NCBI RefSeq assembly: GCF_000341285.1
Contig: NW_005178450.1
Span: 50,828 to 114,827 of the forward strand
Direction: 5' to 3'
DNA length: 64,000 bases
Source: Galdieria sulphuraria
Lineage: Eukaryota; Rhodophyta; Bangiophyceae; Galdieriales; Galdieriaceae
In this document: piece by piece, positions 1-22,237 of the stretch
How the letters are laid out: each line of letters starts with the position of its first letter
How positions within the stretch are numbered: position 1 is the first letter of the stretch
Translations under genes and position numbers: made by a program
Notes under the pieces: generated by a model
Told to the model about the DNA's origin: nothing
Seen by the model: only the letters and a program-made list of their open reading frames with translations
The model's database searches: none

Positions 1-1078
1 CTGTGTTCAGTTGCTTGCGGCGTTGACAGAAGAGGAAGTGATGGTGAACCGATTCATAGAAAGAGGTGGTTTACATGTTCTCTTTTCGAAAAATGTTATA
101 AGATGGATTGCCGTGAAGGAGTCAGATGAGTCCAATTCGTTGCAAGTATCTTCATCATTGTTCAGTTTTCGAGGACTGGTAAGAAATCTTGTGCAGGATG
201 CCCAAGTTTTAGAAGATGGAATGAAAGATTCCATTCGATATATTTTGAAGTCACGTTCTTTGGTCAACCCTAGCTTTCTGATTGTTCATTCGTTGCCCAT
301 GATTGCCAAGAATCCTGTCGTTTATTTGAAAGCATTGGCAAGAATGACTAGCGTGAAGAAAGTGGGCAATGGCTACAAGTTGGAATTATCTCAGACAGCA
401 ACTACACAAGATGCTTTGCAATTCCGTGATACCTATTCCATTTCTTTTCGATTGAGACAAGTATTGCAACATTTGTGGGAATTGTTGGAGCCGAAGAATC
501 AAGTGGATGAAGAAGAGTGGGATAAGACTTGGGCTCACAAGTACGATTGGAGTGTCGAAGCAGTTCATCCAGCGTGTTGTAAAACAATGTTTTATGTATT
601 ACATGATTTGGTGGATACTTTTCCTTGTGTAGCTCAAGCGGTAATTGTTTTAAGTCAACACAAAACACCTTCCTGGATTGCAACGATCATTGAACATTAT
701 ATCGGTTGGAATAGAAAGGAAGCATCTACTGGAAGTGTAGGATATGCAGCCAGTTTGTTTCTGTTATCGTTGTTGGATCGAGAAGAAGAAGCAATCGTTG
801 CACAAATGGTGGAAGTTGTGGGTCATTGGTTATTTAAAGAGATGCAACATCCAAGAGTGGAGAAAGTAGCGGGTATTTGTCGTTTGGTGAGTGCAGTTCA
901 ACGTTTGAAAGTGCGATATAAGTTGATATCCGATGGGTTTACCGATATTTTGTTGCTGTTATTGGAAAAGTTTTCACGAGAGCACTCGACGAGAAGAATG
1001 GATGAAGAGATAGAAATGATCGTTCATTGTTTGCAGTTGTTGGGAGAAAGTTCCATTTCGATGCATGCAGAAAGTTGA
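1..1078 (+). CDS. HUWE1/UPL1-like protein, C-terminal fragment (partial at left edge, no HECT)
   Basis: An open frame enters from the left edge and stops at a TGA at 1076-1078, giving about 355 visible residues. The first codon of the gene is not in the window. The helical, armadillo-like sequence recalls the middle of plant UPL1/UPL2 and animal HUWE1 E3 ligases, for example the stretch NPVVYLKALARM and the later region around HPRVEKVAGICRL. In those giant proteins this part lies well before the catalytic HECT domain. Here the protein ends, and the next gene on the opposite strand starts 47 bp on, so no HECT can follow unless through a very long intron. It could be a HECT-less relative, a split gene or another armadillo protein. 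Family assignment is by eye and only moderately safe. Confidence 0.4.
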   Translation, partial: CVQLLAALTEEEVMVNRFIERGGLHVLFSKNVIRWIAVKESDESNSLQVSSSLFSFRGLVRNLVQDAQVLEDGMKDSIRYILKSRSLVNPSFLIVHSLPMIAKNPVVYLKALARMTSVKKVGNGYKLELSQTATTQDALQFRDTYSISFRLRQVLQHLWELLEPKNQVDEEEWDKTWAHKYDWSVEAVHPACCKTMFYVLHDLVDTFPCVAQAVIVLSQHKTPSWIATIIEHYIGWNRKEASTGSVGYAASLFLLSLLDREEEAIVAQMVEVVGHWLFKEMQHPRVEKVAGICRLVSAVQRLKVRYKLISDGFTDILLLLLEKFSREHSTRRMDEEIEMIVHCLQLLGESSISMHAES

Positions 1079-1125
1079 AATAAAATGAGAAAATCATGTG
1101 GATCATGTTTCACACAAATAGAGCT

Positions 1126-3147
1126 TTAAGCCTTTTTCAGTCGTCGTTTCCATGAAAGAAATAAATTCTTATTAGGCAATGTCTCTGCGGATGATGAATG
1201 GTCATCATCGCTCGTCGACTGAAAATGAACCAACCTTGATAATATGGATACACTATGATGATGCTTCGAAGGATCATCATCCTTTCTCGTCGGTTGATGA
1301 CCAGGTTTCGATAAAAACGACTCGGTAGAAGCTTCCTTTACCTTGTGTTGTGGCATCGATAGACAATATTGCTTGATGGATTCCCGAGTAGAAGATTTCC
1401 ATCGACGACAAACATAATAATGAACGGGGATAACACCTTCACGAATAATACCCCATTGTTTTAAATGTTTTGTAAAACTTGTAGCTGTCACTTTGGTTCC
1501 TGGCTGGAGAGTCAATGCAACATGGACTCGATCGTTGACCAGGAAACTTTTCACTTTGTCAATGGAGGGAATGAGTTGTAATAGGAAATCGATTTCTGCC
1601 AAACTAAATGTGGATTTTCCAACTCGAAAATATTGAGGTTCATCATCATCATATTTCCACGGCAAATGTAAACTTGAATCTCTTTTGGCATGAATAGGTA
1701 AAGGTAACTTCACGATAGAAGACGATGGGCAACTTACAAGTTGTGAAGACAAAGTGTCTAAAGTGGGTGGTACTATAGGAAGCGAAGTGGCTTTCAATCC
1801 AGTCGAAGGAGGTTCTGAGGAATCCATGGTGAGAACTTGGTTTTCTTCTTCGCGAATATCATTGCAGAGTTTTCTACTTTCCTCTAATTGTCGATATGAT
1901 TGCAATGTTTCTATGGGTTGTAAATGACCAACGTGGTTGCGCTTTACTATCCATCCGGTTTTCATGTACAATATGGAATCATTCAAATGGCAGTGGTCAG
2001 TCAAGGAATCTTTAGATAGGATATCTCCAGATATCCACATTTCGCCTTGTTCTGATTCGATATCGCGGGAATCGGGGTTAACTAATAAGACTTGAATGTT
2101 TTCAAATGGTTGTCCGATTTCCCAATATTCATATTCATTTTCTATTGTTGCAACAGTCTCCACGAGATATTGAAAGGTTAACCTCAATGATGATATCAAT
2201 CCAACGATGAGGAAAAGAGGACACGATAACGAATGACGAATGGTAAACAAAGATTGCATTTGAGACCTTACAAAAGGACTCGAAGAGAGACACCAAACAC
2301 ACTTCAACTGATTGTAGATATTAACAGCTTTGGGATGCGTCAACAAACTTGATAATTCAGGCAACGGTGCTGCTAACCAAGTAATACCAAAGGAAGTAGC
2401 TTGGTTGATCACAGACTCTGGATGAAGGATTGTTTCCCGAGCTATCAGTATGGGACAACCGTTGGTAAGAGCCACCAATACATTAGTTATGAGCATATGA
2501 ACAGAGACTGGATGACCAACCAGACATACAATATCATCGGATTGCGGTCCATGAGATGAGGAAACCATATGAATTGCCAAGCAAATTTGTTCATGAGTAA
2601 AGGAAACTATTTCATTGGAAAACGTTTCTTCCATTTGGTCCACCAAAGCAAGATAATTGGGTTCAATCTTATAATGTCGTTCTTCAAATGACATTGTCTT
2701 CAACTCGTGCAACTCCATTTTTGTACCCTCGTTGATGGTCTGTTTCACTCGGATAACATGTAATTCAAGTTCTGAAGCTATTTTATGCCCCATCATGGAT
2801 ACTTGACTACCATCTTTGTTCGAAAAAAGGATGGTTTTCAAGTTGCGAGTAAGAATAATCGACTTGAGTTCTTCTTCGCTACAATTCAAAGGTATAGGAT
2901 GTACAACAACACCCACCCAAACACAAGATAAAAACATAATGATATAGTCCAGTTCATCTTCCACATAAAGTGCCACAGATATCCCTGGAGTGAACCCAGC
3001 TAACCTCAACAAGGCAGCGTTTTGTTCAATCTCCCTATGCAAGTCGGAATGGGATAACTTTCGTTGATGTGCACCGTTTGAAATAACTGCCAATTTGGAA
3101 GCATATTCGGCTCTAGGAAGTTGTCGAAGAGACTGCAGTAGTGGCAT
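1126..3147 (-). CDS. Degenerate adenylate-forming (AMP-binding, acyl-CoA synthetase-like) protein
   Basis: Single-exon gene of 673 residues. The N-terminal 80 residues look like the start of acyl-CoA synthetases and DIP2-type adenylation domains (L-H-x-E-I-E, then GVVVHPIPLN, which resembles the A2-A3 region). A later GEMWISGDIL matches the A7 motif of the superfamily, and residues near 530-640 look like the small C-terminal domain. The Ser/Thr/Gly-rich ATP-binding loop (A3) is not recognisable, and the TGD of motif A7/A8 reads TGWIV, so key ATP-contact residues seem lost. Between residues about 450 and 520 lies a low-complexity linker. The protein is therefore probably non-catalytic or has a changed chemistry. 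Substrate unknown. It converges with the gene to its left (stops 48 bp apart). Confidence 0.55.
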   Translation of the reverse strand: MPLLQSLRQLPRAEYASKLAVISNGAHQRKLSHSDLHREIEQNAALLRLAGFTPGISVALYVEDELDYIIMFLSCVWVGVVVHPIPLNCSEEELKSIILTRNLKTILFSNKDGSQVSMMGHKIASELELHVIRVKQTINEGTKMELHELKTMSFEERHYKIEPNYLALVDQMEETFSNEIVSFTHEQICLAIHMVSSSHGPQSDDIVCLVGHPVSVHMLITNVLVALTNGCPILIARETILHPESVINQATSFGITWLAAPLPELSSLLTHPKAVNIYNQLKCVWCLSSSPFVRSQMQSLFTIRHSLSCPLFLIVGLISSLRLTFQYLVETVATIENEYEYWEIGQPFENIQVLLVNPDSRDIESEQGEMWISGDILSKDSLTDHCHLNDSILYMKTGWIVKRNHVGHLQPIETLQSYRQLEESRKLCNDIREEENQVLTMDSSEPPSTGLKATSLPIVPPTLDTLSSQLVSCPSSSIVKLPLPIHAKRDSSLHLPWKYDDDEPQYFRVGKSTFSLAEIDFLLQLIPSIDKVKSFLVNDRVHVALTLQPGTKVTATSFTKHLKQWGIIREGVIPVHYYVCRRWKSSTRESIKQYCLSMPQHKVKEASTESFLSKPGHQPTRKDDDPSKHHHSVSILSRLVHFQSTSDDDHSSSAETLPNKNLFLSWKRRLKKA

Positions 3148-3725
3148 AGTTTAACAAGTCATCAGAAAATCCACAAAAATCCATATCTTTTGGGAAAATC
3201 TTAGTTGTAGTAGGATGGGACATTCTCACGTGTCCTTTGGTACAGGGATTTTTTATGACACGTATTATTCTGTGCCAAGTAATCGAATAATGTTCCTTTA
3301 ACGGAAGAATAGGAAGTGTCTGTTATAGGTATTGTTTACCTCCCACAATTCCTATTATATTCAATATGAATATTGGGTACAAATAATAATCTTCATCAAT
3401 ATGAAACAACGTGCTTGTTGGATTTCTCCGAGGCCTATCAAAAGGATATAGAGACTTTTATAAATTTGATGAAGCAATAATAGCATCACTATTCTCCTAT
3501 CAATGATGATAAAAGACTGAAGTGAGCAGTTGGTCAAAATTTTTGGTTAAAGATTGGAACACTTACATTGCTTCTTTTTGTATACTCTTCCTTACTCAAT
3601 CTTTCTGGAATCATCCCTCGATGGCTTTCCATCCTATCGCATTCTCGTAGACAGGATTACAGATAATCAACGAGATTCCTCTATGAAAACTTGGCATCAC
3701 TGTTCACTCAAAGACATCCAAATCA
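3148..3725. other. Intergenic region, upstream of the adenylate-forming-like gene
   Basis: 578 bp between the start of the adenylate-forming-like gene and the stop of PEX1, both on the minus strand. Short open frames here have poor coding character. A CACGTG box lies at 3227-3232, about 80 bp upstream of the start at 3147. Nothing else was recognised. Confidence 0.5.
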
Positions 3726-6700
3726 TTACTGCAAGGCAACTCGGGCCTTGTGACTTCCATGCATAGCGCTTCCATCCTTTCGTGTCATTTTCTTAGCAAT
3801 ACGTGCATATTTCTCTCTTTCTTGGATGCTCAAAGATGCCACGCTTTCTCTCAACGAATCCTTCAAGTCTTGATCTATTCCATCACCCACAACATCCTCT
3901 TCTTGCTCAGTCTCCACATGATTTACATGCAAATTCCTTTTCAATCGTTTCAAATGAGCATTGGATACAATTGACCGCAAATCAGCACCTGTGTAACCTT
4001 CCGTTGTTCTGGCAAAATACTCCAAATCTATTTTCTCAGATAATGAATTTAATAAAATGGAAAAAATTTCCTTCCTTTCTTCCATCGTTGGTATATCCAA
4101 TTGTATCCATTTATCCAATCTACCAGGCCTTAGTAAAGCAGAATCCACAAGATCTGGTCTACTTGTTGCTGCGATAACGAAAACTCCTTTTTGAAGAGGT
4201 TCAACTCCATCCAATTCTGCCAACAACGAATTGACCACTCTATCCGAAACACCAGTAGAGTCACTGCCACGTTGTGGAGCCAAACTTTCCAATTCATCGA
4301 AAAACAAAATACAAGGTGCTAAAGAAGCTGCTCTATGAAAACATGAACGAACAGCAGCTTCACTGGCACCAATATATTTGTTCAACAATTCTGGACCTTT
4401 CACGGTGATCATGCGAAGATGGAACTGTTTGGCAGCGGCTCGAACAAGTAAAGTTTTTCCGCAACCTGGAGGGCCATAGATCAAAGCACCAGAGGCCAAT
4501 CGAATAGGAGCTGAAGCAAATAATTTCGAATATTTCAGTGGCAACTCTAAAATGTCTTTAATGAGTTCCTTTGCTTGATATAAACCACCGATTTGACTGA
4601 AATCCTTAGCTTCCGACTCCTCTTCGTGGCTACTAGAAGCTTGACCCATAAATGCAACAGGTTTAAAGCCATTTAATGCTTTGGTTACGACTTCTTCTGT
4701 GATGATGCAATTTGTATCGGCAAACAAAATTAGTCGACGAACCAATCGCTGGAGATCTTTTATCGAACAACCATCTAAAGCACCTTGCAAATGCTCCCAA
4801 ACAAATGATTCTATTTGCATATCTTTCAACTCTTCTTTGAGTATTGCCATTTTATCTTCCATAGTTAAAGAATCTAAGGTAAAGGTTTCTGCAAACAAAC
4901 CAGCCTGTAAAAATTTTGTGGGATAGTTGATCAACGGTTGCTTGGAAACAAACAATATTGCGATTCCACCTAAATAAAAACATGCTTCGATATACTCGAT
5001 TACCAATGCTTCTAGGCTCTCCTTACAAACATCCCTTTCTTCAGGTGAATTTTGGGAGGAATGACAAAACATTTCTTGGCTATCAAAGAAAATAATCAAA
5101 GAGGGTCGACAACGATAAGCCAACGTAAATGTATCACGGATTCGATTGCAGGTTTGATTCCAAGGCTCTCCAGCATGGATATTCAGGTGCAAAGATATAA
5201 CTTGAACAGGATTAGGTAAGCGTTGAACAAATTTCCTTTCCAACTTGGCAACCAAGAAAGTACTTCCATAACCTGATGGACAATGAAAAAAGTGACAACA
5301 AGCTGGTTTTACGTCAAACGGAGGAGCAATGGTATCCAAATGATGCTCTTGTAACACATAAGGATCATAATATGAAAAAATAGGCGATAAATGGTCGTAT
5401 AGACACTTCAATATTTCTTGCGGAGCTTCTCCTATCACCTTCATTTGGTCTAAATACAAAACTCTTTTTGAGATAAGTTTCATTTGTTCCAAAGCAGACA
5501 GCCATTTGGAAGGCAAAGTTGCTCGATGAATGACTACATCTTGGCAGCTACGAATATCAAGGCGGTAATGAACCAAAGAAAAGTAACTATTAGATTCTTG
5601 CAATATATCATTAGATGACTTTATGCTCTTTGGCGACTCTTCAACATCACTTTTGGGATGCCACGGTTCATCATGCTTAGAAATAGGGAGTTCTTCTTCT
5701 AGTCGATGTTCATCAAAACATAAAAGAGCTTGTGCAGTTATTTGTGAGTGAGGATTGGATATCCATATACGATTCGTACAAAGTAAATGTTCAGAATGAA
5801 TGCTAGACAAAGCATCTTTCAACCACTGACGACTGCCTTCTTCATTCATATCAAGTCCTTTGTTATCCATGAAAGTGTATAAAAGTATACTTTTCGGGGT
5901 ACGAGTCTTGTCTTCTTTCACAGGAAGTGCAAATGCTCTCGAGCCATTTCTAAATCCAACAACTACTGCTTGATAAAAATGCAACATGACATGAGACAAA
6001 GGAACCGAAGAATCCAAACTGACGCGTGATATTACGTGAGCCTCTGAGTCTGTTAACTGTAAAAAGTCACCTTCACCAAGTTGTAGTGTATGGGCTGTCT
6101 TAGGATGCATGAGAACGCCATAATAATATCTTTCGTCGTAAGTGTATAAAATGCGAAATATACGGGATCTACTTTTAGAGTCCCTTGTATTCAGGCCTTT
6201 TGTTGTAGTTTTCTTTGTGTCGGAGGAACCATGACTTTCCAGAGGCAACGAAGATGGAGGTTCTACTTGAAGTATACTATCGTACTCTAACAAACTACAA
6301 GCACTTCTTGGTAAGACGTCTGTAACTACCAATAGTACTTGTGTATTTCCACTAAGTCTTATGGGAATAGTTTGACCCAGTGAAACCAACCTCACTTGAT
6401 TAAGCAATACCTCTTCAAGATAGTCCCTATGTAACGCTACAAGACTCCAGTCCTCATCACTGACAGTCTGTAGAAAAACTCGTGTGGCCTTTTGACAATC
6501 CTTTGGCGCCACTGGCTCCACTTGAACTATTTGGTCCTCTTCTAGCTGCAATACTTCGGCCAGTAGTGAGCCTACTTCAAAAGTCTGCAACTGAGAGCTA
6601 GAACTGCCACTCCATGCAACATATGCGACTCTTATTCCTTTACTGTGGTTGTTGTCTCCACTGCGAGAAAAAAGACCTCCTTGAAAACTTTGACTGACGT

Positions 6701-13529: not shown

Positions 13530-13953
13530 TTAAGAGGAGGCAGCAGCGGCACCAGGCCTCTCCGCGTTCTATTCAAGGGTAAACGACTCTTTCTCTCTCA
13601 AAAACCACCAACTTACTGTCTTATTCAAGCTTCTTCGTTGCTGCAATTCCTCAGCGTCCATGGTTTCTTGGCTCTTTCTGTCAGGATAGTATCCTTCACC
13701 CATGGACCTCCAAGAGGATAAATCCTGAGAACTGTTGCCTTGCTTTGTTGTTTTCACAAACTGCCCCGACTGTCTAGCCTTTTTGGTTACTTCCTAGAAA
13801 CAAAAGGTTCAATGGAGCCACCACTACTTTCGTAATACTACGTACTTCTTTGCCGGGATTCGGGGGGCAACCATCACCAACCCACTTTAACCATGCTTCA
13901 AAACCATAGTGGGAAACACCTTTCGAGTCAACATAATGTTGGACAATACACAT
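13530..13953 (-). CDS. Small unknown protein, paralogue A of a tandem pair
   Basis: Three exons: 13846-13953, 13617-13793 and 13530-13568, 107 residues. It is clearly homologous to the gene at 14255-14724. Both first exons are exactly 108 nt, both introns are phase 0 at equivalent places, and the proteins share MC-(I/L)-V-x-HY-(V/I)-D, GVS-(H/Y)-YGF, GC-P-x-NP near residue 30 and the block YYP-x-RKSQET followed by DA-x-EL-x-QRRSL. No known domain is recognised. There is no signal peptide or membrane span; the protein is polar with many Gln, Ser and Arg. The C-terminal exon differs between the copies (here Ala/Pro-rich). Too short and spliced to be found as a single open frame. Confidence 0.72.
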
Positions 13954-14254: not shown

Positions 14255-14724
14255 TCAGACATTGCCATCTTCTTGATTGATCAACAATTGTTGCCGTTCG
14301 GTTTCCTATTAACGTAAATATATAGATAAATGTCAAACCCCAAAAAAAGAGGACAAGATTTACAAAAACTCACGGTTTTACTGAGACTTCTCCGTTGTTC
14401 CAGTTCCACCGCGTCCGTAGTTTCTTGGCTTTTCCTTCCAGGATAATAGTCTTCTGCCATAACACGCCACGCATGGAGGTCGGTACTGGAAGCTCTTTGT
14501 TGTGAAGTATTGGAGGAAGAAGGTCGTCCAAACTGGTTTGACTTTCGACTCCGACGTAATATTTCCTATTCACACAAGTTCAGCTGCGGTAACTAGTACA
14601 CTACAGATGATTTTACTTCTTGACTAGGGTTTTTAGGACAACCTGCTAATAACCATCTCCAAAAAGCGTCGAAACCATAATAAGAAACACCATTTTCATC
14701 GATATAGTGGTGAACCAAACACAT
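14255..14724 (-). CDS. Small unknown protein, paralogue B of a tandem pair
   Basis: Three exons: 14617-14724, 14374-14565 and 14255-14305, 116 residues. Paralogue of the gene at 13530-13953, which lies 300 bp downstream in the same direction; the two are roughly half identical over exons 1 and 2. Conserved points are a Cys at position 2, a His at 6, YGF near 20, a GCP-x-NP motif, then WR-x-M-x-E-x-YYP, RKSQET and QRRSL. The middle is Ser/Gln-rich and slightly longer than in A. The splice phases match those of A, so the duplication is of the whole gene including introns. It is divergent from the bHLH gene and shares with it a 358-bp upstream region containing two CACGTG boxes. Function unknown. 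Confidence 0.72.
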
Positions 14725-14879
14725 TTGACAAAATTATCCATCGGTGTGTGATCCTTCCTATATATACAGTTTACGTCATTTATCACCTACATAGATTGAA
14801 ACTGTGAATATGAAACCTTTGCCTATGTTATTCTTCAAAATGATGGACTCAGACATCAATGCATACTAGAAGGATCGGA

Positions 14880-14896
14880 CACGTGTATGGCACGTG
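14880..14896. promoter_or_regulatory. Pair of CACGTG (G-box/E-box) palindromes upstream of the bHLH gene
   Basis: Two CACGTG hexamers at 14880-14885 and 14891-14896, centre to centre 11 bp, so on the same face of the helix. The second is embedded in the 10-bp palindrome GGCACGTGCC, the first in ACACGTGT. They lie in the 358-bp region shared by small gene B and the bHLH gene. CACGTG is the classical binding site of bHLH dimers, so autoregulation is possible. About nine CACGTG are expected by chance in 64 kb at this base composition. Confidence 0.45.
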
Positions 14897-14948
14897 CCTA
14901 AATGATCGATTTTCTTCGAAAGAGAAAGAAAGTAGAAGAGGAGAACGA

Positions 14949-14967
14949 AGAGAGAGAGAGAGAGAGA
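14949..14967. repeat. (AG)n microsatellite
   Basis: About nine AG units, followed by a G-rich stretch, roughly 115 bp upstream of the bHLH start codon. Purine-strand tracts of this kind are common in plant and algal 5' regions. Confidence 0.7.
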
Positions 14968-15082
14968 TGGGTGGGGGGACTGAGTGGTGGGACCGTTGAT
15001 GATAGTTGATCTTGTAGCTACTTTCTTATCAAGGATTGTAACTTGACCCTACAGATACAAGAAATAAAGTATATTGTGTAGT

Positions 15083-15979
15083 ATGGATCATACGAGTCTC
15101 GTTGTTCGGGAGGCTCTAAAGTCGGCACACTTGCGCAAAAGAAAGGCAACCAACGAGAGTTCCCTCAAGACCCCTCAAAACGAGTTTTCAGCTCCAATGA
15201 ACGGCGATTTTCCTTGGTTGAAAGGTACAGCAGAAACACGAGGTAGTTTGGGACCTTGTGAATCCAGTTCAAGTAACTTCTATTGCCATCCAAAAAGTGC
15301 TTTGCACAGTGGTTCAACTAGTTTGCAGTCACCGTTTTCGTTGGAGACAAAGTCAAACTCCTCTTCTTCTAGTTCAGAAGGTACTAGTGATCATAAAAAA
15401 CTAAGAAAGAAACGCGAGCGCGAGAAGAAACGAAGGCTATGCATGAACAGACTTTTTGAAAAATTGATGACTGTCATTTCTGCCGATCGATTTGTCAAGA
15501 AAGACAAGGAATCAGTGATAACGCAGACGATAGAATACGTACAGTGGGAGCAACAGCATATTACTCAACTGGAATCAGAAAATCGCTTTCTCAGGGAGCA
15601 AGTCGAAGAGTTGAGAGCGGAGAAGAACGAACTTCGCTCCGATAAGATTTATTTGAAGAACGAACTTCACAGCTTAAAAGAAGAAGTGGAAAAATTGCGA
15701 AACGATAACGTTATTTTATGGCAATCTTGTAGAAAAGGGGATGCAGTTGTGAGTGATTCTGCATTGGATGCTGCTCTTCGTGGTAACCTTTTGCAAGACT
15801 ATCTTGACAACAATGATTTCGATCCATTTTTGGGGAGTTCAGTGTTTGAGGAGGGTATTGGAGAGTTCTCTAAACCTTATGAGAAGAGTGAGAGTTCGTC
15901 ATCTCGAAGTAGAAATGTTTTGGATAGTGAAAAAGGAAAAAGAGATAATACTTTCCCGACGCATTCTCCTTGTGCTTAA
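15083..15979 (+). CDS. bHLH-leucine-zipper transcription factor resembling plant group IVc (ILR3/bHLH104/115)
   Basis: Single exon, 298 residues from the ATG at 15083. A Ser-rich N terminus is followed by a basic region (about 108-125: KKLRKKREREKKRRL), helix 1 (MNRLFEKLMTVI), a loop with KKDKESVI, helix 2 and then a long leucine-zipper/coiled coil (about 152-210). The zipper segment RAEKNELRSDKIYLKNEL closely recalls the conserved LKAEKNELREEK block of plant IVc bHLH factors that control iron-deficiency genes. The basic region has E and R at the DNA-reading positions expected for E-boxes. The C terminus is acidic. The gene ends 44 bp from the stop of a BRUTUS-like ligase, the type of enzyme that recognises these factors in plants. 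Group assignment is inference from this similarity. Confidence 0.82.
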   Translation: MDHTSLVVREALKSAHLRKRKATNESSLKTPQNEFSAPMNGDFPWLKGTAETRGSLGPCESSSSNFYCHPKSALHSGSTSLQSPFSLETKSNSSSSSSEGTSDHKKLRKKREREKKRRLCMNRLFEKLMTVISADRFVKKDKESVITQTIEYVQWEQQHITQLESENRFLREQVEELRAEKNELRSDKIYLKNELHSLKEEVEKLRNDNVILWQSCRKGDAVVSDSALDAALRGNLLQDYLDNNDFDPFLGSSVFEEGIGEFSKPYEKSESSSSRSRNVLDSEKGKRDNTFPTHSPCA

Positions 15980-16023
15980 AGTTGTGGAGGGAAAATATTA
16001 TATACAAATGGATTTCCATTTTA

Positions 16024-19000
16024 TCAAGTCTTTCGACGAGATATTCGCAATACACGCGTATTATAGCTACCACATTGCGTACATTTGTGGAAAACAAAGT
16101 GAAAGGTTACGTCACTCTGTTTTTGACAGTCATTACATTGAATATGAGATACGATACCGCGATAGAGTTGTTTGGCTTGATCACGTGCCAATAACTCATC
16201 CTTCAAAGTGTAATTAGAATTCTATTTTGGTAAAGCACTTGAAAATAAACCACTTACCAGTCTCGCAAAGTAACTAGACATGTCCTGCATTGATCGTTGA
16301 CATATGGGACAAATATAACTCTTTTTGACGTAATGATTATAACATGAAACATGCATTAAATGGCCACATTGAAGATACTTTACCGGACTAGTCGAAGTAA
16401 ATAAGTATTGATAACAAATTGGACAGTCCGACTCCATCGAATGTTCAATGCAATGATGACTCTTAGCATACTTCATGCTCATACACGCATTACATTTCAT
16501 ACAATGAAAAGAGTCAATTCCTAAGCCTTTGCCTACTCTGCAAACATTACAACTGTGACAGTGGTATATATTCCGAGCAGAATCGTCATCAAACAGTTTA
16601 CAAATGGGACAAAAATAACGTGCCATTCTCTTTGAACACTCGGGATTGCAACACCATTGAGATATTGGCTGAATACGGCCACAATGCATACAAAGCATTT
16701 CACGTGTTGCATAACGATTATCTCCAACCTTGTGGTCTTCCACTTCATCATGACAGAGTCGACAAGTGTAAAACTTGGAACAACAGACTGTTCTTATCTT
16801 TGCACCTCTCAAATAATGCGAACACCCCAATTGTCTACTTCCATCTTCCAACTCACGAAAAGTAGGTTGTAACTCACCCGGATATGTTTCCTCATACTTG
16901 CTATGATCAGTATCATCCTGAGAAGAACAAGAAGTAGGAACTGAACTTTGTTCTTCAACACTGCATAGCCAATGACGACCTTTGCTTTGAAGATAAGGTC
17001 GCAACATCAGATTCTGCATCAAATGAGTTTTTTGCTTATCCGTCAAGGTTTCATCGGATGCAATAACTCGAATGGCACTTTCTAAATCTGCTCTACTTTG
17101 AATTCGAACAGCGTCACAAGTATTTTCATAATCACTAGTTAAGCCCTTAGGAGTTTTCGGCTTCAATGAAGTTGAGGACTGACATGACTGCGCTGATTTA
17201 TTGTTTTCTTCTGTTTCTGTTTTTTCAGCACCGGAGCAAGAATTGACTCCTACAATACTCTCTTCTCCAATCGAGTATTTGGATGGAATCAAAGGAAACC
17301 AAGTACTTAACCAACGTTCAAACATAGTCGAATGAGTCACCTGAAGTATATGCTTCAGCATGTTACTCTGTTCTGACTCTGTCAGAGTACGAATGAGCCA
17401 TGGAAGCATCTCCTGAAGTCTCTCTGATGGCATCGTACCAAATATATCTGCAACGATCGCGACTTGTTCTTCTCTGGTAAAGTTTTCGATCAATTTCGGC
17501 CACAAATTTTGTTCTTCCTTATTTAAATGTCCATTCAGTTCCTCGTGTAGGGCACGAACGAGAGAACGCAACTGCTTTAAAAGTGATTGACACTCAGATT
17601 CGCAACCTGCACATTGAAGAGCTTGTAGAACTTGCAATACATTGGAAAACAATTCACGTTCCTCACAGTGTTCTCCTTCATATCGCTTAGAGATTCCAGG
17701 TAGTCTTTTCTCTAATGCGGGTAATACAATATTATCTTCTGCCTTTGAGTGATCGTTTACCTAAAATGGTCTATAAGTATATAAACTATCCATAAGTGAC
17801 AACCACAGTACCATATTTCGAAGAAAAAAGAATCTCTCGGCAATCGTTGAGATAGAGTTAGGATTAGGCGCCTCGTCAATCGCCAAGTTGGTGACGACCA
17901 CATACAACTTTTGAAGCTCACATCTTATAGCCTTATGGATACGCAATATTTCATCCACGGGGCCATTATCTTGGTCTGCTTCTTCATTCTGATACTGCTG
18001 TAGTTCTGGAATGCGAAGACACAACTCATCCCATAATAACGGCTCCATTTTTCCCTAAATTTTCATTCTATCATTGGTTGCTTCATAAAGATAACAAAAG
18101 TCGTACTCTTCTTGCAGCTTCTCCCAAAAATGCCGATATTTTCTGAAAATACTCCTTACTTGAAGAGCGCAATATGTTACAAAATAATTTTTCTCTTTCT
18201 TCCGCATCCAGCGCATTAAGCATCCAAGGAAACACGTCAGGAAGAAATTCCATTGGAATCTTCGCCATAACTCTTCGAATTAACTCGTCCTGATCTCTCA
18301 GGGAGAAATGAGAACGAACCAAAGGTAACAATCGTGCCTCCTCTTCTTCCATATGCACTATAAGATGGTTCGATATTTCTCGAACTGCTGAACTAAGTTT
18401 GGACATGGCTTCGTATCTTTTTTGCTTGTCATTTTTGTCAAAACTCGCAACTCTATTGATATGCTCCAAGATATTGCCAAACAGAAAGGATTCGTTACAG
18501 TGTTCGCTAGAAATTTCATCCAAGCCATGCATTCGTAATACAGCCCTCAACTGAGATACGAGAACTTCATCTTCTCCAAGTGAATGGAAGTTATGTACGC
18601 GTTGCAAAAACAAGATACGCGAACACAAACTTTTTATCTGAAGATTATCGCAAGGATCGAGCTCTGCACTATAAGATGCCATTGCCTGCACAGTCATGCT
18701 TAACAAATGTCTACAGATGCTTGATAAAAATAAAACACTTACTTCCAACTCCTTTCTAATCGCTTTATGTAAATGAGTTATTTCAACCAGAGGATTAATA
18801 GAGCGTTCAGCAGCCACTTGAAGACTTGGGACATTACGACACAACTCTTCCCATTGCTCACCGGAAAGCTCCTGAACTAAGGGAGCGGCTACCGACTCAA
18901 ACTGCTCCGGAGTCATATAACTACAAAATATATAAAGCCTATCAAAAAAATTGAAAATACGTACCGTTCCAATGCAACGACAAATCGGATACGTTTTTCA

Positions 19001-19984
19001 AAGTCTAATGCTCGAACTGCACAAGGAAGAAGTGTCGAAAGAGCTTTTGGACTTGTATCCATCACAACCGAAGCAAGCAAGGCTCCTTGTTCGGCAGTCG
19101 TCAAAATGTTACGAAAAAGAGGCGATAGATTTTGTTCTTCTTCTAAAAGATGTTTCTCTACATTTTCGACGAGAATGCAAAAGCTAGAACTGAGCTTCTC
19201 TAGCAAGGGCCCACGAGGGGACTCGAAAGCTGATATTGAAGTTACTTTGCCCTTTCGGGGAGACAAATTCGAGTCAGTTTCTAAAGGTGTCGAATTGGAC
19301 GATTTCTGCAGGTCATTTTCTGCTAAGGGTCGATGCTCCAAAGAAAAAGGTGTGTTCAATATTTGTTCGATGACTTGTATCGTCTCAGAAAACCAGTCAT
19401 CCAGTTGTTCATGCTGTTGATTGACCAATTCAGTTCCCAATAAATATCTTTGCTCTTCAGACTTCTCTTTGGACAGTTTCTTACAAAGAGCTGGAAGAAT
19501 TATTCTGTCCTCTGAACAGCAGTGGTCTAAAAGCAAATCTCGGCAAAAAGTTAGCCTACTACGCAATTTATCGAGTTCCTAAGTTACGTTAGGATGTTTT
19601 TCAGTAAATTTGACATCTTCGCTTACTTGGTCCGTGGTGGCAATAGTGATTTGGCGGACCTGATCTTTCAAACGTTCCAGTTCCTTCCTAAAGGCTTCAT
19701 GAAGACAAAACAGTTCCAACAATGGTTCACCAATATCCAAGATATGTTTTAAATTTCCAAAGTTTTCGTTTTCTGCTTGTTGGTTGTCCTATTTCACAAT
19801 CATGTCAAAGGAATCCCCAACAAGCCATTCGACTCACTTGTTTCAGCTTTTTGGGGGACTTTTCGTCCTCGGTACAGCAAAAATGACCTTCTCCAAATCC
19901 TGTTTTTGAAGCTCTCTTTCCTGTTGTACTTTCCGCCGTACACAAAGATACCTTGTTAGGGTTGGTAGGACTTGCAGTGGTCAT
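16024..19984 (-). CDS. BTS: BRUTUS-like iron-sensing E3 ubiquitin ligase (hemerythrin x3, CHY, CTCHY, RING, zinc ribbon)
   Basis: Eight exons: 19838-19984, 19627-19788, 18965-19578, 18743-18920, 18107-18685, 17812-18054, 16258-17760, 16024-16200; total 1200 residues, the size of plant BRUTUS. Three hemerythrin-like helical domains occupy the first 700 residues; iron-ligand patterns include LLDHCCSEDRIILPAL, NHLIVHMEEEEARLLP, NDHSKAEDNIVLPAL and ALHEELNGHLNKEEQN. The C-terminal part holds a CHY zinc finger (GCSHYLRGAK...CCSKFYTCRLCHDE), a CTCHY finger (YHCHSCNVCRVGKGLG), a RING (DCPICYQYLF...CGHLMHVSCY...CPICQ) and a last-exon zinc ribbon (CNDCQ...HKCTQCGSYNTR). In plants the hemerythrin domains sense Fe and the RING ubiquitinates IVc bHLH factors. 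The neighbouring bHLH gene ends 44 bp away. All introns are 44-57 nt. Confidence 0.93.
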
Positions 19985-20488
19985 CTTACAGGAATCGCTT
20001 CCATTTCTGTGAATTGAGATTTCGCGCAATTTTTTGGGGGAAAAGAATTTTCGTCGGCACGTGTCGTTTACATTTTCTATGCGATTTTGATTTTCGAGAG
20101 AATTTCATTTGCACCTTCTGAAACTCTCTCACATATGCATCTAAATACTTTCTCATCAGAGTCAACTACAACGCACCCAGACTTGGTAATCAATGATAAG
20201 ATTTTATGGGAAATATTTTGTAAGTTATCTGTCGATAGGAAATCGTTCTATATATGGACTGGTTGTATAAAACAGCGTCAATGACTCGCAACTTGTTTAT
20301 TCCACTAACAGAATAGTAAATGGCGAAGATGAAAATATCCAGAGGGGTTGAATAAAACTCTACAAAAGGCTTTTCATTGCAAAGAAATGACAAGAGAACT
20401 ATCATCCCTTCTACGACTATTGACAAATTCAGCGGCTTACGAATTGCCCTATTATTTAGTTGTTGACGTTCTTACAAATGTTTCTTTA
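19985..20488. promoter_or_regulatory. Upstream region of the BRUTUS-like gene
   Basis: 504 bp between the BTS start (19984) and the 3' end of the nucleostemin gene. A CACGTG box sits at 20058-20063, about 75 bp upstream of the start codon, in the context GGCACGTGTC, which is similar to the second box upstream of the bHLH gene. No other coding sequence is supported here. Confidence 0.4.
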
Positions 20489-22237
20489 TCAAGCGGTTGA
20501 AATAGGAGGATCATATGTCTCGACAACACAAGCAGAAACCTAATACATTCTCAATACTTTGTCATGCTGATAAACAGAATTGTACCTGAGCAGAACTATC
20601 TTTAGGAGGTGACGTATAATAAGGAATCTTTCCACGTGACCAATCGATTAATATGGAATGTGCTGCTGCTTGCAAATCTAAAGCACCGCCTTTTTGTAAC
20701 TTGCCTCTTTTCTTAGCAATCAATGCAAGAAACTCATCACGAGTGGAAAAAATAGGAATATTATATTGTGTGGTTAGTTTTTCAACTCCTACTTTGTCTA
20801 TAATAGCATCAATAAAAGGGAAGGGATCCTATCCATTCATATATATATATATATATATATCCATTGTGAGTTGAATGCATATGAATTGGCACCTTGTTAT
20901 ATCACCGACCTCTACATTTTGAGTGGATACAAAATTTCGAATAACCAACGATAAATGATGGTCTTCCTCATGAGACATAAATACAATTCCTGGACAGTCC
21001 ATAAATCGAATATGTTGATCGATCACAATCTCCTGATTATGTTTGGTAACACCTATTATGATTGAGATTGCAAACTTTATCAACCAATATATATACATAT
21101 TTATATTTATATATATTTACCTGGATTCGGACCCGTTTCTACTACTTGAGAACGATGCAAACAGTTGATCAGAGAACTCTTTCCAACATTGGGATAACCG
21201 ACGACTCCCACCTAATGTATTTGTGTAAAATATATTTCTTCATTTCATATGACAAGACTTACCATTACTAAAGAAGAAGAATGATGATGATGTTTGTCCG
21301 ATAAGAATCCTTTCAATAGCCGCATCAAACTTTCCGTATGTGGAGTATACTTTTTTCTTATCTAATAATACGAGAAAATTCAGATAACTGTGTTGCATTT
21401 CATTATGAAAGATTTTAGATACTTTTTCATGTGCTGCACAAAATGGTACGGTAGGATGGAATGTTGATAAGTATTCTATCCATTGAGTTGCAATGGAATT
21501 AGGAATCATATCCACTTTGTTAAGCACTAAAACGATTCTCTAAAGAATAAAAGTCAATGTTCTAGCTACTATTTGCGATAGATATTCATTGTCTTACTTT
21601 ACTTCCTCCAAAATTCGACATAATATATTGTTCTGCTTTCATACTTCGAGTTCCAAGTGGATCACGTGCGTCAATAACTTGTAAAATAATATCGCACTGG
21701 TTTACCAACTGCTTGAAATCTTTCACATGTCTTCGAATATTTCCTTTTACTAGCCACTCATAGTTATGGCTGACCAAACCAACGGAACAACTTCTAAACC
21801 ATACCTTGGGCTTCTACTTGGGTATCTTCAAGAGATGATTGCGTGGTTATTTGTTCCTCCCTATCTTGACTGTTGTCTTCCTGAGTAACCGCCGTTGCCT
21901 TTAATTTCTATTCCAAACTACAGTCAGTACTTGATCACCAGAAAGTCCTTACAGCAACTACATTGGCCAAGCGTATTCGTTTCAATGTCTGTTCTTGTTT
22001 AGCGTACTCTTCCAGAATTTGTTCTTTGTAAGGAAAAGCGTTGGGAATACCTAACCATCTACGCTTTAACATTAATCTTGAAGGATAGTGCAGCTTACGA
22101 AGTTCTTTTTCATGCTTTTTGGTTCGAGACTGTTTCTTTTGTTGTTTTCTCATCTTTCTCTTATGTTCTCTTACTTTTCTTTGTATTTTATATTTTTTAC
22201 GCAGAGTCATACGTTTACTTTTAGAATGAGGTGCCAT
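20489..22237 (-). CDS. GNL3: Nucleostemin / GNL3-type circularly permuted nucleolar GTPase
   Basis: Nine exons: 21953-22237, 21805-21907, 21598-21743, 21423-21539, 21263-21361, 21121-21211, 20910-21052, 20586-20828 and 20489-20539, 425 residues. It acts in ribosome biogenesis in the nucleolus. The basic N terminus ([17 protein letters not shown]) is the GN3L domain. The G motifs come in permuted order: [14 protein letters not shown], then G4 LNKVDMIP, then G1 [12 protein letters not shown], then G3 DCPGI. The C terminus [17 protein letters not shown] matches the family. Introns are 45-81 nt; the sixth exon's donor (GTCGGT near 20909) is uncertain, and its intron carries an AT dinucleotide run. 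Divergent from the RRM-FHA gene, start codons 82 bp apart. Confidence 0.9.
20839..20860. repeat. (AT)n microsatellite in an intron
   Basis: About eleven AT units inside the intron between exons 6 and 7 of the nucleostemin gene; a related AT-rich run lies in the preceding intron (21089-21115). Confidence 0.7.

Follow-up and report, generated by a model that had tools for sequence, protein, structure and literature searches.

A BRUTUS-type ligase gene beside a IVc-like bHLH gene in Galdieria sulphuraria: a candidate one-ligase, one-factor iron switch

Two convergent genes and the BRUTUS-type ligase

We analysed a 64,000-nucleotide stretch of the acidophilic red alga Galdieria sulphuraria (assembly GCF_000341285.1, contig NW_005178450.1, positions 50,828 to 114,827), hereafter the window, in which a gene for a basic helix-loop-helix (bHLH) transcription factor and a gene for a hemerythrin E3 ligase of the BRUTUS (BTS) type lie tail to tail. 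The bHLH gene (15083..15979, + strand) is a single-exon open reading frame (ORF) of 298 residues (Pfam HLH, E 3.2e-6) and the ligase gene runs on the minus strand from 19984 to 16024, leaving 44 bp (15980..16023) between the two stop codons. This convergent arrangement, with stops at 15979 and 16024, had been described in an earlier, sequence-only reading of the window, and its coordinates were borne out by our ORF and splice models. At a probability of roughly 0.6, we propose that the locus would encode an iron-sensing ligase and a bHLH activator that is degraded via its tail, and that feedback would act on the promoters of both genes.

The ligase gene consists of eight exons separated by seven short GT-AG introns (44-57 nt). 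On the minus strand, the splice model places exon 1 with the start codon at 19838..19984, exon 2 at 19627..19788, exon 3 with most of the first hemerythrin domain at 18965..19578, exon 4 at 18743..18920, exon 5 with most of the second hemerythrin domain at 18107..18685, and exon 6 with the start of the third at 17812..18054, while exon 7 (16258..17760) carries part of the third hemerythrin domain together with CHY, CTCHY and RING, and exon 8 (16024..16200) most of the zinc ribbon and the stop codon. The intron at 18686..18742 (57 nt) is in frame and was recognised because deposited relatives of the ligase are shorter; its removal yields a product of 1200 residues, which differs at one residue from a deposited G. 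sulphuraria RING protein (P0006).

A Pfam run on the 1219-residue, seven-exon version that retains this intron gave matches over the cut-off to Hemerythrin (five stretches, E 2.6e-23), zf-CHY, zf-RING_2 and zinc_ribbon_6, and CTCHY was assigned via the alignment to Pirh2 (RCHY1). Metal ligands are intact at all 18 positions of the three N-terminal hemerythrin domains, which we assigned using the alignment together with the pattern H..HxxxE..H..HxxxE. Together these results uphold the earlier description of the protein as three hemerythrin domains plus CHY/CTCHY/RING. The same units, followed by a zinc ribbon, occur in identical order in the BRUTUS/HRZ/BTSL ligases of the green lineage, whereas the Galdieria ligase is red-algal, adjoins its candidate target and represents the sole CHY-finger locus found when the whole source assembly of the window (12.05 Mb, 102 contigs) was searched exon by exon for zf-CHY. 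The pair also differs from the animal iron regulator FBXL5, an F-box protein with one hemerythrin domain that targets the RNA-binding protein IRP2. After G. sulphuraria itself, the closest named relatives of the ligase are those of G. partita (88% identity, full length) and G. phlegrea (65%), and red-algal copies already carry the name BRUTUS in databases. A further two BTS-like proteins share a contig prefix (P0056 and P0116; tig00021464_g21750 and g21727), and from the style of their ids we take them to be from the glaucophyte Cyanophora; they are annotated at 815 and 778 residues and, by our reading of the sequences, contain two hemerythrin units each. The BTS/HRZ family is described for the green lineage in a 2019 review (PMC6381054) and in a 2025 paper that mentions diatoms too (PMC12022348).

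Kinship of the bHLH factor and linkage of the pair

The bHLH domain of the factor (residues 108-154; 15404..15544, + strand; PF00010) is followed by a continuous zipper of about residues 157-208 (15551..15706, + strand), which contains ELRAEKNELRSDK. The references used here and below are provisional sequences of the Arabidopsis group IVc factors ILR3, bHLH104 and bHLH115. The basic motif EKKRR fits the Glu9/Arg12/Arg13 pattern and is followed by the continuous zipper, and the KNELR motif has the same offset from the basic-region Glu in the Galdieria protein as in all three reference sequences. Against these references the window protein scores 33.5-39.8 bits, compared with 17.7 bits against a piece of MYC2 and 4.5-21.7 bits against its three siblings, the other members of the four HLH loci that pass the Pfam cut-off in the exon-by-exon genome search. 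Four homologs were found beyond the window (G. partita, G. phlegrea and two metagenome proteins), and a profile of the four complete orthologs, the window protein included, reaches 40.6-42.0 bits for the three IVc references, whereas MYC2 scores 19.5 and the siblings 3.2-22.7; it aligns without gaps over about 100 residues to the bHLH115 and bHLH104 references.

The Pfam family bHLH_IRO3 (PF23177) matches all four complete orthologs, namely the window protein, that of G. partita and the two metagenome proteins, at 14.4-19.0 bits (E 0.0017-0.045) and gives no match at E 1 in any of the three siblings; precomputed annotation with a newer version of PF23177 lists bHLH_IRO3 for all four. The PF23177 scores lie below the curated cut-off of 27 bits and some generic coiled-coil models score equally high, and heptad-preserving shuffles of the zipper reach its score in 287-554 of 20,000 trials and its identity in 890-4,223 of 20,000, so that the zipper alone is weak evidence. 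The likeness to ILR3/bHLH104/115 noted in the sequence-only reading thus stands as far as the factor scores closer to them than to the MYC2 piece or the siblings, while group IVc membership is unproven; we call the factor IVc-like, a term that does not separate IVb from IVc. Like the plant IVc factors (ILR3, bHLH34, bHLH104 and bHLH115) it combines a bHLH with a continuous zipper and a C-terminal PxA. In contrast to these four factors, Galdieria has one such protein, which ends in SPCA instead of PVA or PAA and carries an extra block after the zipper (residues 216-240) that is conserved at 24 of 25 positions.

The two genes are neighbours in all three Galdieria species in which both could be identified, adjacency in the other two being judged from consecutive gene or protein numbers: bHLH g2676 and ligase g2675 in G. 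partita, both listed with the same longest contig (266,876 bp), and JGI 2187 (bHLH, an apparently broken model) beside 2188 (ligase) in G. phlegrea. Assuming roughly 6,500 genes, we estimate the chance that one of four bHLH genes adjoins the single BTS gene at about 0.1%. Outside the genus, relative searches found no bHLH relatives beyond Galdieria or Galdieria-like sequences, no bHLH relative was retrieved from Cyanidium caldarium, whose BTS gene is CDCA07G2184, and alignments of both proteins against further genome contigs and viral contigs gave no match. The BTS and bHLH genes of Arabidopsis are not known to be linked. The earlier suggestion of a conserved linkage therefore holds for two further Galdieria species, while its extension to an old red/green unit is unsupported. 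Among the listed matches and passages of a search of openly searchable papers, neither BRUTUS-bHLH linkage nor a red-algal IVc-type bHLH is mentioned.

Gene order that is inherited within a single genus says little about function, and it is conceivable that the two genes are chance neighbours, the ligase sensing iron and the bHLH not being its target, with the adjacency inherited like any other gene order. Linkage was checked within a single genus, and the flanking genes that were identified, a phosphatase and a kinesin (Pfam) as well as a GTPase and an RNA-binding protein (reading of the sequences), are none of them iron genes. Moreover, the window holds another pair of convergent ORFs (41-1078 and 1126-3147, the latter on the minus strand), whose stops lie 47 bp apart, and the 44-bp spacing is therefore not special here. 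The IVc-like sequence, the PxA tail and the G-box cluster described below nevertheless point to an iron pathway independently of linkage, and we consider chance neighbourhood unlikely. The linkage is real, yet it is the least informative part of the locus: it probably reflects dense gene packing that a single genus has retained, or else mild selection for inheriting the two genes together, and the proposed switch does not need it. The sequence-only reading had also suggested antisense control through overlapping 3′ ends, an idea compatible with any other reading and favoured by the 44 bp between the stops; given a similarly spaced pair in the same window, we dropped it as unsupported and highly improbable.

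G-boxes at both promoters

Upstream of the bHLH gene lie two G-boxes, CACGTG-TATGG-CACGTG (14880..14896), at -203 and -192 of the ATG, and a further one (20058..20063) is embedded in ACACGTGC on the minus strand at -79 of the BTS ATG. A motif search places two more within the ligase gene, in exon 8 (16182..16187) and exon 7 (16701..16706), and another two beyond the ligase start, in the stretch of the next gene. These seven fall within 14501-21700 (7.2 kb), where the reversed hexamer is absent, and make up more than half of the 12 CACGTG sites in the window (mean of 100 shuffles 6.46, with 12 reached in 3). In 160 kb of background (16 segments of 10 kb from other contigs) we counted 11 sites and at most two per 7.2 kb, so that the Poisson probability of seven is 9e-7 from the background and 1.1e-5 from the shuffle mean, for a 7.2-kb region that was picked after inspection.

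In Arabidopsis, regions with an E- or G-box are bound by the IVc factors and by PYE (PMC6345679). In diatoms, low-iron genes have ACACGTGC near -200 in common (PMC3491386). Both Galdieria promoters share the G-box core of this motif and the ligase promoter the full octamer; a related octamer is not enriched genome-wide.

The genome-wide counts speak against a broad regulon. The octamer CACGTGTC occurs 108 times compared with 115 for its reversed control, and paired G-boxes with a gap of up to 30 occur three times in the 12.05 Mb compared with four for theirs, so a large G-box regulon is unsupported. Because CACGTGTC was chosen after seeing the sites, its presence there is not independent evidence. 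Ten iron-transport candidates were collected (four NRAMP, three ZIP, two ferric reductases and one multicopper oxidase), and a G-box lies within 500 bp upstream of the predicted first in-frame ATG in two of them, both NRAMP; the whole-genome search gave no match to the FTR1 iron permease. As for the other two G-box pairs, one lies inside an ORF (contig C27); the second (contig C45, 46132-46148), the sole other genomic pair with a 5-bp spacer, precedes a HAD hydrolase frame by about 55 bp. Two palindromic GACACGTGTC sites were inspected, one of which falls in a coding frame and the other near frames read as protein kinase. Within the window, the AMP-binding enzyme frame at 1126-3147 (minus strand) has a CACGTGTC site at 3227, 80 bp upstream of its ATG.

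The bHLH tail, a possible ligase pocket and a candidate iron switch

The bHLH protein ends in FPTHSPCA (codons plus stop at 15953..15979, + strand), the proposed ligase-binding tail or C-degron. All eight residues are identical in the four complete orthologs, compared with 16 of the preceding 50; the G. phlegrea model (P0005), the fifth ortholog, skips the basic region, has a different end and is apparently mis-annotated, and was left out of this count. The three sibling bHLH frames end in NRI, IKQ and KDI, although later exons are possible. In a yeast two-hybrid study, IMA1 and the IVc bHLHs of Arabidopsis end in PAA or PVA (PMC9226616), with which SPCA agrees in its P at -3 and A at -1, position -2 being Cys. 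The same study found that IMA1 loses BTSL1 binding without its last seven residues, that ILR3 and bHLH104-C lose BTS binding without their last 25, and that CHY and CTCHY are required for binding of the bHLHs (PMC9226616).

In our reading, the locus would encode a minimal iron switch, made up of a bHLH activator and the single hemerythrin E3 ligase responsible for its destruction. With sufficient iron, the diiron centres of the three hemerythrin domains would render the ligase active, and its CHY-CTCHY-RING part would hold the neighbouring bHLH by the tail FPTHSPCA and ubiquitinate it, the terminal alanine most likely sitting in a Pirh2-like groove; of all the steps, this one is the least secure. 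Under iron shortage, the bHLH would survive, dimerise and bind the G-boxes at its own and the ligase promoter, and perhaps those of some NRAMP genes, thereby inducing iron uptake as well as the very ligase that destroys the factor. The gene structure, metal ligands, adjacency in Galdieria, invariant tail, core pocket residues and G-box cluster are observed; from them we infer the binding, ubiquitination, iron control and targets of the pair.

Over CHY-RING the ligase shares 44% identity with Pirh2 (7ynx), its closest relative of solved structure. Pirh2 binds a free C-terminal alanine, with Y23 and R41 holding the carboxylate and R109 the backbone, and prefers ends of the form A/S-X-A-A in which position -3 is Ala or Pro (PMC10148881). 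When the Pirh2 alignment was mapped onto the best 120 of 319 BTS-type relatives, seven of the ten pocket residues examined were present in at least 115 of them (Y23 119, R41 120, R54 120, D94 115, Y100 120, R109 120, S155 120). The L92 position holds F in 78 and L in 34, that of I110 holds V in 80, and that of A159 V, I or M. Among the six residues that grip the terminal Ala, the carboxylate- and backbone-gripping set Y23, R41, R54, D94 and R109 is kept and Q99 is not. The Galdieria ligase thus resembles Pirh2 in this core, and differs from it in its added hemerythrin sensor, in 10 of 21 mapped contact positions and in a candidate substrate with Cys at -2. A 2019 review notes the similarity to RCHY1 and reports that the RCHY1 residues touching another target are not conserved in plants (PMC6381054). 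Openly searchable papers yielded no literature linking BRUTUS to C-degrons.

Several observations speak against this groove as the site of recognition. Q99 is replaced by V, I or L in all 120 proteins and is one of the ten contact positions that differ in Galdieria, most of which border the groove where it takes up residues -2 to -6, while 11 of 21 are identical. The tail SPCA agrees with A/S-X-A-A at -4, -3 and -1, but its -2 residue is Cys; small residues at that position lower Pirh2 affinity 16- to 32-fold, Cys not being named in the section that gives these values (PMC10148881). SPCA is therefore not a strict Pirh2 motif, and we do not file the pair as a Pirh2-type member, although it may work like one. 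The conserved pocket residues may instead serve zinc-finger folding. In the two-hybrid study, removal of the last 25 residues leaves the BTSL1 binding of ILR3 and bHLH104 intact, those 25 residues alone bind BTSL1 and not BTS, IMA1 also binds a RING plus zinc ribbon piece that lacks CHY, and the essential site of BTSL1, 14 residues long, lies between its CTCHY and RING, where docking places the IMA1 PAA, and is not the Pirh2 alanine pocket (PMC9226616). As plant tail deletions spare BTSL1 and only 11 of 21 contacts are identical, the Pirh2-type pocket becomes less likely; the plant data suggest that the tail matters for BTS itself and are only partly compatible with such a pocket.

Some of these data would also suit a ligase in the same iron pathway that contacts the bHLH elsewhere, at the zipper, the helix or the post-zipper block, with SPCA used otherwise, for example in contacting a co-activator. 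Arabidopsis has several reported contact regions, and PYE binds BTSL1 though it lacks a C-terminal PAA (PMC9226616), and in Galdieria the conservation of residues 216-240 points the same way as the persistent BTSL1 binding of the shortened plant factors. However, the last eight residues are invariant after a variable stretch and match the position of the plant PAA/PVA, and plant tail deletions abolish BTS binding (PMC9226616), so that we regard contact elsewhere as rather unlikely and favour recognition through the tail.

It is also conceivable that the ligase mainly performs Pirh2-like quality control of Ala-tailed proteins, with the hemerythrin domains adjusting its activity to iron or oxygen, and with the bHLH as one of several Ala-ending substrates. 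The single CHY-finger locus and the conserved core pocket residues would fit this. Yet the land-plant proteins within the set of 120 keep these residues just as well, and plants possess three to four further RCHY1 homologs (PMC6381054); the pocket residues therefore seem to serve the BTS branch, which makes quality control very unlikely as the main function.

The locus bears on target recognition by BRUTUS and on the age of the plant iron switch, by supplying a specific candidate tail and pocket in a one-ligase, one-factor system within a genus that has a transformable member, G. partita (PMC13353863). The pair hints at an old iron switch common to plants and red algae. We tentatively suggest, at somewhat less than even odds, that BRUTUS-family ligases read a C-terminal-Ala degron via a Pirh2-type pocket, that the Galdieria pair represents an ancestral one-ligase, one-factor iron switch predating the red/green split, and that the IMA/FEP peptides of flowering plants, which end in APAA, arose later as decoys of this degron. 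If so, the ligase-bHLH pair would long predate land plants and plant IMA peptides would be degron mimics.

We do not claim an IMA-like decoy peptide in Galdieria itself. When the genome was searched for ends of the form H-x-P-C-A-stop, where x was mostly S, T, R or C, three places were found, compared with none for the reversed control and an estimated 1.4 expected, which is about a chance number: the bHLH gene and two frames, one of 25 codons (HCPCA) and one of 37 codons (HSPCA). The last of these, on contig C52, ends in LLIHSPCA-stop like the bHLH tail, as such frames would about as often by chance. Finally, upstream of the bHLH gene a 94-nt stretch occurs in two copies (13610-13703 and 14367-14460) that are 74% identical and carry related minus-strand frames, a small duplication.

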